A stretch of DNA of 47,554 nt from the NCBI GenBank assembly GCA_000992695.1, contig LBUS01000012.1:1-47554 (forward strand). The letters are read 5' to 3'. The notes beneath the pieces were generated by a model, which saw only the letters and a list, made by a program, of their open reading frames with translations, had not been told where the DNA came from and did no database searches. Positions within the stretch are counted from its first letter, which is position 1, and the number at the start of each line of letters is the position of its first letter. This document shows, piece by piece, positions 36,868 through 39,767 of the stretch. Position numbers and translations under genes: made by a program. The DNA comes from Candidatus Peregrinibacteria bacterium GW2011_GWF2_38_29. GTDB taxonomy: Bacteria > Patescibacteriota > Gracilibacteria > UBA1369 > UBA12463.

Positions 36868-38274
36868 TTAAATGCGCCCGACCGCTTTCCCCTCCAAAAT
36901 CCACTCATACGCTTTTGTGATTTTAATCGGCACGATTTGCCCAACTAGAGATTTTTTTGATTTGAATTGCACGATTTTGAAGTGCTCGCTTTTGCCTGTG
37001 TTAAAGCCTTTTTTGAAAGATTCTACAAGAACGCCGACTGTTTTTCCAACAAAAGTTTTGTTTCTTGCGAATGCAATTTCGCGAAGCAAATCATTCAATT
37101 TATGAAATCTGCGAGCCTTTTCTTTGGCCGGCACATCGTCTTTTAACAGCTTTTCAGAAACCGTCCCGGGACGCGGAGAATATTTCGCGATGTAACACAT
37201 TTCCCACTTTATTTTTTTGAATAATTTATATGTATTCATAAACTGCTTTTCGGTTTCGCCGCAAAATCCAACGATAATATCCGTTGTGATCGAACAGTTC
37301 GGAACGCGCTTTCTGATGCGCTTAATTATGTCCGTGTAATGCTCGGCGGTATATTTGCGATTCATTCTTTTTAAAGTTTCATTATCGCCGGATTGGATCG
37401 GAAGGTGAATGTATGGCATAACTGTTTTTAATTTGCCCATAGCGTCAATAAAATCGTCGGTGACATCGAGCGGATATGGAGATGTAAAACGAACGCGCTG
37501 CAAACCTTTTGAATGGAATTTGTCTATTTCCTGAAGAAGGCGGGTGAATGGGGATGCGGGGACGGAGGCAGTTTTTGATGTATTTTTTTGCGCGAATTCT
37601 TTTGTCTTTTTATCCGCCGCACTAAGTCCATATGAATTAACTGTTTGTCCAACAAGTGTGATTTCTTTATAACCTTTTTCGACGAGACTTTTCACTTCCG
37701 CAAGAATATCTTTCATCGGGCGAGAATGCTCGCGACCGCGCGCATAAGGCACAATACAGTATGAGCAAAATTTATCGCAACCGGTTGAAATCGGAATAAA
37801 TGCTTGCGCTTTTGATGTGTGTTTTGGATCAATATGAAAATAATTTTGAAGCTCTTGAGGTGCAATTTTTTCGTTTTCTTTGCTAATTTTCGCGTTTTTT
37901 ATGCCAAGAATTTCCGGAAGTTTTGCAATTTCCTCAATGCGAACCGTAAAATCTATAGACGCAATTCTCTTTAAAAGTTTATCAACTTTTTCGCCGTTTT
38001 TTTCTTGTTTGCGAGTTGATGTTTTTCGCACCATACAGCCTGTTAGGCCAACTTTGAAATTCTTATTTTTTTGATGCATCAAATCATATTGAAGCGCAAA
38101 ACCAAAAATACGATCCTCCGCATGCTGGCGAACAGAGCACGAATTCATAATTATTAAATCCGCTTTTTTTGGATCCTGCGTTTCGGTATAGCCCAAGCGC
38201 TCGAGAACGCTCTTTAAACGCTCCGAATCCGAATAGTTCATCTGACAGCCAAATGTACGAACAAGAAATTTCAT
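36868..38274 (-). CDS. miaB: tRNA-2-methylthio-N6-isopentenyladenosine methylthiotransferase
   Basis: 468 residues. An N-terminal UPF0004 domain with its cluster cysteines (TFGCQMNYSDSE, MNSCSVRQHAED, GLTGCMV) is followed by the radical SAM motif C-x3-C-x2-C in GCDKFCSYCIVPYARGREHS and a C-terminal TRAM-like part. The motif set and QMN near the start favour MiaB over MtaB/RimO. A 20-residue insertion (about 205-225, AADKKTKEFAQKNTSK) is unusual. The start is three bases from an in-frame ATG of the divergent small gene. A minus-strand small RNA/attenuator lies 280 bases upstream. Confidence 0.9.
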   Translation of the reverse strand: MKFLVRTFGCQMNYSDSERLKSVLERLGYTETQDPKKADLIIMNSCSVRQHAEDRIFGFALQYDLMHQKNKNFKVGLTGCMVRKTSTRKQEKNGEKVDKLLKRIASIDFTVRIEEIAKLPEILGIKNAKISKENEKIAPQELQNYFHIDPKHTSKAQAFIPISTGCDKFCSYCIVPYARGREHSRPMKDILAEVKSLVEKGYKEITLVGQTVNSYGLSAADKKTKEFAQKNTSKTASVPASPFTRLLQEIDKFHSKGLQRVRFTSPYPLDVTDDFIDAMGKLKTVMPYIHLPIQSGDNETLKRMNRKYTAEHYTDIIKRIRKRVPNCSITTDIIVGFCGETEKQFMNTYKLFKKIKWEMCYIAKYSPRPGTVSEKLLKDDVPAKEKARRFHKLNDLLREIAFARNKTFVGKTVGVLVESFKKGFNTGKSEHFKIVQFKSKKSLVGQIVPIKITKAYEWILEGKAVGRI

Positions 38275-38302
38275 AATATGTACGAATATAATAGTGATTC
38301 TT

Positions 38303-38330
38303 TTGACATTGGCAACAATTTTAGTAAAAT
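38303..38330 (+). promoter_or_regulatory. Promoter of the small gene beside miaB
   Basis: Consensus TTGACA (38303-38308) and TAAAAT (38325-38330) are separated by 16 bases. The -10 box ends seven bases before the ATG at 38338, so translation would be leaderless. Confidence 0.6.
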
Positions 38331-38337
38331 TCCCCTT

Positions 38338-38541
38338 ATGGGACTTGAAACTAATTATTTTTTGGAATTAATCGCTGCTAAAGCTGGACTTGATCCATCG
38401 ACCATAAAACCTCCGTATGCCGATGGACAGTATCCAAATGACGACGGCACAACAACCTTGACGTTAAATTATTTTGTAGGCGACGAATTGAAACAAGCCT
38501 CCGTTACAGTTACCGATGAAGAGCTTGGTATTAAGCCGTAG
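38338..38541 (+). CDS. Small uncharacterised protein, 67 aa
   Basis: The start at 38338 is chosen because a good promoter lies directly before it and inside the longer reading frame that begins at 38278. The protein has a helix (LETNYFLELIAAKAGLDPS) and a beta-rich C-terminus ending EELGIKP. No family recognised, no membrane segment. The longer form would have 87 residues. Confidence 0.5.
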   Translation: MGLETNYFLELIAAKAGLDPSTIKPPYADGQYPNDDGTTTLTLNYFVGDELKQASVTVTDEELGIKP

Positions 38542-38555
38542 CTGTTTTTATATTT

Positions 38556-38642
38556 AAAAACCCCGACTTTATAGGTCGGGGGCGAACCCCCTTGTGAGAG
38601 GCCGGTAAGTAGAAGTGGACGAAGCCAAGCTTCTAAACTTAC
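38556..38642 (-). ncRNA. Candidate small RNA or attenuator with mutually exclusive hairpins
   Basis: On the minus strand a promoter (38649-38677) is followed by about 87 bases that end in a perfect terminator: CCCCGAC/GTCGGGG stem (38561-38581) and TTTTT. Just before it, GGGGG-TTCG-CCCCC (38578-38591) can form and uses the same bases as the 5' arm of the terminator. A third, imperfect hairpin pairs TAAGTTTAGAAG with CTTCTACTTA in the 5' part. No reading frame. It could act alone or regulate miaB, the next minus-strand gene. Confidence 0.6.
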
Positions 38643-38648
38643 ATATAT

Positions 38649-38677
38649 ATTATACTATAAAACATGGAGGAAGTAAA
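38649..38677 (-). promoter_or_regulatory. Promoter of the candidate small RNA
   Basis: On the minus strand TTTACT (38672-38677) and TATAAT (38649-38654) are separated by exactly 17 bases. Confidence 0.55.
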
Positions 38678-39229: not shown

Positions 39230-39565
39230 ATGAAAAGAATCTTTACTACAAAAGTGATTTGTTACAAAAAAAATGACAAGTTCATTGCAGTTGCTTTGGA
39301 TTTTGATTTATTAGATGAGGGCGACTGCATGGTCAAAGCTTTATCAAATCTGCATGAAAATATAATCAGCTATTTAAAAATGTGCGTAAAAGAACATGAA
39401 AGTGATAAAAATATTTACAGAAAAGCTCCGAAAAAATACTATGATATATGCGATCTTTTCGTTGAATTGCAGAAAAAGCATGAAGAAAAAAATGAGAATA
39501 AATTTTTAGGCAACTTATCTTTTAATAGCGAACACTTTGACAAACACGCCTGCTGTAAGTCATAA
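39230..39565 (+). CDS. HicB-like antitoxin
   Basis: 111 residues. The first 55 residues resemble the HicB partial RNase-H fold (KVICYKKNDKFIAVALDFDLLDEGDCMVKALSNLHENI, split by weak matches). The C-terminal half is charged and helical without an obvious DNA-binding fold. The overlap of 29 bases with a HicA-like gene supports the antitoxin role. The order hicB-hicA is less common than hicA-hicB. Confidence 0.6.
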   Translation: MKRIFTTKVICYKKNDKFIAVALDFDLLDEGDCMVKALSNLHENIISYLKMCVKEHESDKNIYRKAPKKYYDICDLFVELQKKHEEKNENKFLGNLSFNSEHFDKHACCKS

Positions 39566-39767
39566 AGAGGCCACCAAAGTCGCAGAGACCTTGGGTTTTA
39601 TTAAAAAGTCGCATGAGGGAAGTCACATGCAGTTTAAGCATCCAACAACCGGTAAGAAAGTTACAATTCCATTATACAAAGAAACATATGGTCCGGATCT
39701 TTTTAGTTTTATTTGTCGACAAATGGGAATAACTAAAAAAGAGTTTTTTAAATATTTAAAACGTTAG
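39537..39767 (+). CDS. HicA-like mRNA interferase toxin
   Basis: 76 residues from a TTG inside the preceding gene. The double-stranded RNA-binding-like HicA fold is clear: SHKEATKVAETLGFIKK, EGSHMQFKHP with the catalytic His, KKVTIPLYKE and ITKKEFFKYL at the end. The usual H-x-x-L/GxSH motif is kept. It would cleave mRNA when not bound by its antitoxin. Confidence 0.8.
   Translation: MTNTPAVSHKEATKVAETLGFIKKSHEGSHMQFKHPTTGKKVTIPLYKETYGPDLFSFICRQMGITKKEFFKYLKR

Follow-up and report, generated by a model that had tools for sequence, protein, structure and literature searches.

Trans-acting small RNAs (sRNAs) of bacteria that end at an intrinsic terminator have a promoter of their own, a length of 80-100 nt, a 5' hairpin, a conserved stretch and a terminator with a U-run, and are conserved at the genus level. 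In attenuators and in the expression platforms of riboswitches, a terminator overlaps an alternative hairpin. To our knowledge, the regulatory RNAs of the Patescibacteria, with their small, reduced genomes, have been little described, and a literature search yielded no sRNA paper for Peregrinibacteria. Here, we describe a candidate small RNA gene in a 47,554-nucleotide stretch of contig LBUS01000012.1 from Candidatus Peregrinibacteria bacterium GW2011_GWF2_38_29 (hereafter, the window), a Peregrinibacteria genome, and compare it with the corresponding loci in two other genomes of its genus. The window genome and these two are denoted G000, G001 and G002, respectively. The kind of RNA is a known one, and none of the sources searched describes this family.

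A predicted RNA gene bounded by a promoter and a terminator

On the minus strand of the window, a sequence scan identified a sigma-70 type promoter, TTTACT-17-TATAAT (38649..38677), in which the -35 hexamer TTTACT (38677-38672) is separated by a 17-nt spacer from the -10 hexamer TATAAT (38654-38649). The RNA is predicted to start at about 38642, 7 nt past the -10 hexamer, and would be ~87 nt long (38556..38642, minus strand). At its end lies an intrinsic terminator (38556..38581, minus strand) with a perfect 7-bp stem, CCCCGAC-CTATAAA-GTCGGGG (38581-38561), followed by T5 (TTTTT, 38560-38556); on the opposite strand, the hairpin has no T-run after it. An earlier note on this DNA had described the same promoter with its 17-base spacer, the ~87 bases and the perfect terminator as an unannotated small RNA gene. 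The promoter and the terminator were found as described, the length holds with the start placed from the -10 hexamer, and the gene itself is supported by the promoter spacing, structure and terminator that are kept in two diverged lineages.

Single promoter-like or terminator-like sites occur at about the chance level in the AT-rich DNA of the window (12 promoter-like sites vs 7.3 expected, and 4 terminator-like sites vs 2.5 expected). A strict pair, defined as a promoter matching at least 10 of 12 bases and, at a spacing of 50-200 nt, a perfect stem of at least 7 bp with T5, was detected a single time in the window, and 20 Markov shuffles of the window contained none. The entire genome (1,231,801 bases) contains two strict pairs, the second of which precedes the 23S rRNA gene. 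Intrinsic terminators of the strict type number just 13 in its 1.23 Mb, and this scarcity makes the small RNA gene stand out. We count the near absence of strict pairs elsewhere in the genome as support for an RNA gene.

The other strict pair (G000:C4:112425-112303, minus strand; L192 ~12425-12303), ~130 nt upstream of the 23S rRNA gene, encompasses a leader with a long hairpin and with GGTGTGC..GCACACC plus a T-run, and looks like an attenuated rRNA leader. A convincing match to it was absent from the portion of G002 that was read.

Predicted folding of the RNA

The predicted end fold consists, in both lineages, of three hairpins, namely, H1, H2 and the terminator. In H1 (38605..38642, minus strand), GUAA and UAGAAG, separated by a 3x1 internal loop, pair with CUUCUA-UUAC around the inner stem UGG-CUUCGU-CCA. 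In H2 (38585..38603, minus strand), which is compatible with the terminator, GGCCUC pairs with GGGGGUU (GGCCYC with GGGGGYU across the lineages). The conserved core, UCUACUUACCGGCCUCUCAC (38594..38613, minus strand), carries a single substitution in G002. The predicted energies are -30.1 and -35.9 kcal/mol, with z-scores of -1.9 and -2.7, for the window and G002 copies, respectively.

An alternative hairpin, GGGGG-UUCG-CCCCC (38578..38591, minus strand), excludes both H2 and the terminator; its CCCC also forms part of the terminator's 5' arm, which makes the two helices mutually exclusive, as the earlier note had seen, and this exclusion is kept in G002 as GGGGG-CUUG-CCCCC. When growing prefixes of the RNA were folded (by minimum energy, not as a kinetic simulation), H1 appeared first and was followed by H2, GGGGG-CCCCC then displaced H2, and, finally, H2 and the terminator displaced GGGGG-CCCCC; the full-length predicted fold always contained the terminator. 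Because the prefix folds end in H2 and the terminator, we expect the overlapping hairpin to be no more than a transient fold during synthesis.

In H1, one A-U pair of the window copy is G-C in G002, with both sides changed, and the inner stem is UGG/CCA in the window and UGAG/CUCA in G002 (UGAG-CUUUGU-CUCA), in each case around CUUYGU. In H2, two pairs are G-U/U-G in one lineage and G-C/C-G in the other. The terminator is kept in G002, where an A.C mismatch replaces one pair and the inner stem is longer. In the three-hairpin structure, 98.6% of the cells are paired, compared to 32-57% for slid partners, a figure that leans towards the structure given that the latter was derived from these same sequences. 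The covariation comes from two independent lineages only and is statistically weak, being equalled by 158 of 500 shuffles; these base changes, therefore, support the fold without proving it.

Conservation within the genus

All three genomes of the genus compared here carry the element as a single copy, and a near-identical locus is found in the Peregrinibacteria record GW2011_GWC2_39_14. The G001 copy is nearly identical to that in the window and has the same promoter hexamers. G002 is far more diverged, with a median protein identity of 64% (424 reciprocal best hits, with about three quarters of G002 covered) and 49% identity at third codon positions (30 gap-free ortholog pairs). The G002 copy of the element is ~75-76% identical over 112 query bases (BLAST E 5e-16), and the flanks cannot be aligned. 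The G002 promoter, TTGACC-17-TATAAT, occupies the same position, and the best-kept part is the core CUCUACUUACCGGCCYCUCAC, where one base differs between the window and G002; G002 also keeps GGGGG-YUYG-CCCCCGAC and GGGGUUUUU. The MAFFT alignment used includes the -10 hexamer. Identity of ~76%, against 49% at third codon positions and unaligned flanks, points to a real element under selection, and because the element is conserved in G002 (E 5e-16, and 107 bits with a covariance model of which G002 is itself a member), a chance origin is ruled out. Lack of conservation of the hairpins in relatives was part of what the earlier note would have held against its own reading; all three hairpins are kept in the diverged G002. 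At the sequence level, the element is non-coding because a 1-nt indel beside the core shifts any reading frame between G000 and G002 and no frame is shared, which argues against a small protein.

Beyond the genus, BLAST and covariance model searches found no relative in g2, the sister genus within the family, or in the order, nor was there any in 288 genomes sampled from the class and 379 from the phylum, or in phages or plasmids; the model was built on two lineages, which limits its sensitivity and may have let a diverged relative escape. A synteny search in g2 beside tRNA-Arg and the metallo-hydrolase gave no candidate. The covariance model also gave weak matches, of 29 to 18 bits, elsewhere in the Patescibacteria; read one by one, these were rejected because they fall mostly on the -10 hexamer and a terminator rich in GC rather than on the core and H1 together. 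The BLAST matches in g2 (L026, L035) and elsewhere in the order (L028) are confined to the AT-rich promoter region. The exact 16-mer core had 85 matches in 84,980 genomes. Among the matches that were re-scored, which leaves aside most of the actinobacterial loci, the element was found only in LBWJ01000012 and JACRIA010000032, both from Peregrinibacteria and corresponding to the G001 and G002 loci; the many matches in Streptomyces and Nocardiopsis are what chance would produce with a 16-mer. On the searches made, the RNA gene appears to be restricted to one genus.

Genomic neighborhood

The gene order in the window is miaB (minus), an 87-aa open reading frame (ORF; plus), the element (minus), a PspC gene (plus), a small ORF and HicA (plus), tRNA-Arg CCU (minus) and a metallo-hydrolase gene (minus). 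As the earlier note stated, miaB is the next gene on the strand some 280 bases on; it is co-directional, with its start at 38274, 282 nt past the T-run of the element, and its own promoter-like site, TTGCCA-16-TATTAT (10/12; 38288..38315, minus strand), lies between the small RNA and the gene. The 67-aa gene of the note exists as a convergent ORF, but 67 aa is the product of the shorter start at ATG 38338, and the ORF encodes 87 aa from ATG 38278.

The surroundings differ between the genomes. In G001, a 189-aa convergent ORF replaces the 87-aa one, and ~700 nt separate the element from miaB. In G002, too, the element is found between miaB and tRNA-Arg(CCU)/metallo-hydrolase, but its orientation to both is reversed, such that it points at the convergent tRNA-Arg and away from miaB, ~4 kb off. 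The downstream side, thus, is different in all three genomes (the 87-aa ORF and miaB, the 189-aa ORF, and tRNA-Arg). Given that the neighbors and the orientation differ, and that miaB has its own promoter-like site, what was conserved is neither a miaB leader nor antisense control of one fixed neighbor. The earlier note had suggested looking for the same hairpins upstream of miaB in relatives; G002 has the hairpins, but they point away from miaB.

The 87-aa convergent ORF (38278-38541, plus strand) has no Pfam match. Only 7 nt separate the end of a TTGACA-16-TAAAAT site from the inner ATG 38338, and therefore the 67-aa form would be leaderless. At 39230-39767 on the plus strand, between the small RNA and tRNA-Arg and beside the PspC gene, a small ORF is followed by a HicA toxin gene (identified with Pfam). 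This block is absent from the corresponding place in G002, and our search of G002 returned no PspC gene.

Possible functions and alternative explanations

Taken together, these features make it probable that the element is a stand-alone, genus-restricted gene for a small non-coding RNA, which probably acts in trans. Transcription, its start and end, action in trans and the mode of that action we infer from sequence. The RNA would be read from its own strong promoter, fold into three hairpins and stop at its own terminator. Action in trans would most likely involve the conserved 20-nt stretch UCUACUUACCGGCCYCUCAC, which runs from the 3' arm of H1 into the 5' arm of H2 and could work by base-pairing or protein binding; the GGGGG-CCCCC hairpin would be short-lived, yielding to H2 and the terminator once the 3' arm of the latter is made. 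In a search for base-pairing with translation starts in 406 ortholog pairs, the best combined score was -5.8, compared to -6.1 +/- 0.9 for shuffles, and 31 of 60 shuffled seeds were as good as the conserved stretch; this is a weak test, given its dependence on the gene finder, the choice of starts and the coverage of about three quarters of G002. It is also conceivable, albeit quite unlikely, that the RNA is self-timed, with the kept GGGGG-YUYG-CCCCC intermediate holding GGCCYCUCAC open for target pairing, or permitting polymerase readthrough unless a partner binds. If so, the RNA would act differently during its synthesis and after release.

The possibility that the DNA of the terminator or the promoter acts on the neighboring genes, as a terminator or a cis-antisense element, the RNA itself having no role, would suit the setting of the element, which is flanked by convergent and divergent genes in the genomes examined. 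We nevertheless consider this unlikely because the interior core is the best-kept part while the neighbors differ, and the other strand has no T-run, unlike a terminator for convergent genes. An attenuator or riboswitch leader, the layout envisaged in the earlier note, would use GGGGG-CCCCC as an antiterminator, with the readthrough feeding miaB or being antisense to the 67/87-aa gene. The geometry agrees with this reading, as helices that exclude each other in pairs are real and kept in G002, and miaB is co-directional and close in the window. Regulation of miaB is unsupported, however, because the RNA of G002 faces away from this gene and into tRNA-Arg; the distance and the longer convergent ORF in G001, the promoter-like site of miaB itself, the predicted end state with H2 and the terminator in both lineages, and the lack of matches to Rfam riboswitches also speak against a leader, which makes it very unlikely.

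Still less probable is a piece of a mobile or selfish element that spread in the genus. The variable locus, with its different neighbors and the inversion between species, and the dispersed repeats nearby in G002 would fit such an origin, but the element is single-copy in each genome and has no phage, plasmid or viral relative. We give the least credence to a diverged housekeeping RNA, such as the signal recognition particle (SRP) RNA or 6S RNA, missed by the models. A family search of the three genomes turned up no SRP RNA, but this is no evidence of absence because the same type of search, run on the whole genome, missed the 6S RNA gene that cmscan finds (RF00013, 48 bits; G000:C16:30293-30451). 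Against a housekeeping role, the element lacks the SRP domain IV loop motif and has no significant Rfam match with permissive filters, and the 6S and RNase P RNAs are located elsewhere in the genome. Read as a stand-alone sRNA gene strongly conserved in one genus, the element offers a concrete way into the question of whether these bacteria regulate genes with trans-acting RNAs.

Other features of the genomes

Dispersed intergenic repeats are common to G000 and G002, for example, G000:C1:9233-9393, C3:11839-12075 and C4:14085-14213 (with about three quarters of G002 covered). The intergenic regions of both genomes also contain many GGGGACGGAGGT / GGGGACGGGGGTG boxes near gene starts, which we take to be reminiscent of the repeats associated with REP transposases. 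A group I intron was detected in the window's genome (G000:C2:17288-17518; Rfam, 106 bits), and another one lies within a 23S rRNA gene from a distant member of the Patescibacteria (L149 912-1141).

Comparison with known RNA families

No Rfam family matches the element, even with permissive filters. The anti-hemB sRNA (RF02837) gives a weak match (17.9 bits vs the cut-off of 49.5, E 0.46), probably via the terminator, far under the gathering score, so membership was rejected. The covariance models of 6S RNA (RF00013) and the bacterial small SRP RNA (RF00169) did not match the element, the domain IV motif of the latter is missing, and no described aptamer family among the known riboswitch classes was matched. 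With attenuators and riboswitch expression platforms, the element shares the overlap between the terminator and an alternative hairpin; it differs from them in having neither a kept co-directional downstream gene nor an aptamer family, and in that the terminator state is the predicted end. From the trans-acting sRNAs of bacteria, it differs in the lack of an Rfam family and in its origin from a Patescibacteria lineage, and it is like them in the promoter of its own, the length, the 5' hairpin, the conserved stretch, the terminator with a U-run and conservation at the level of a genus.
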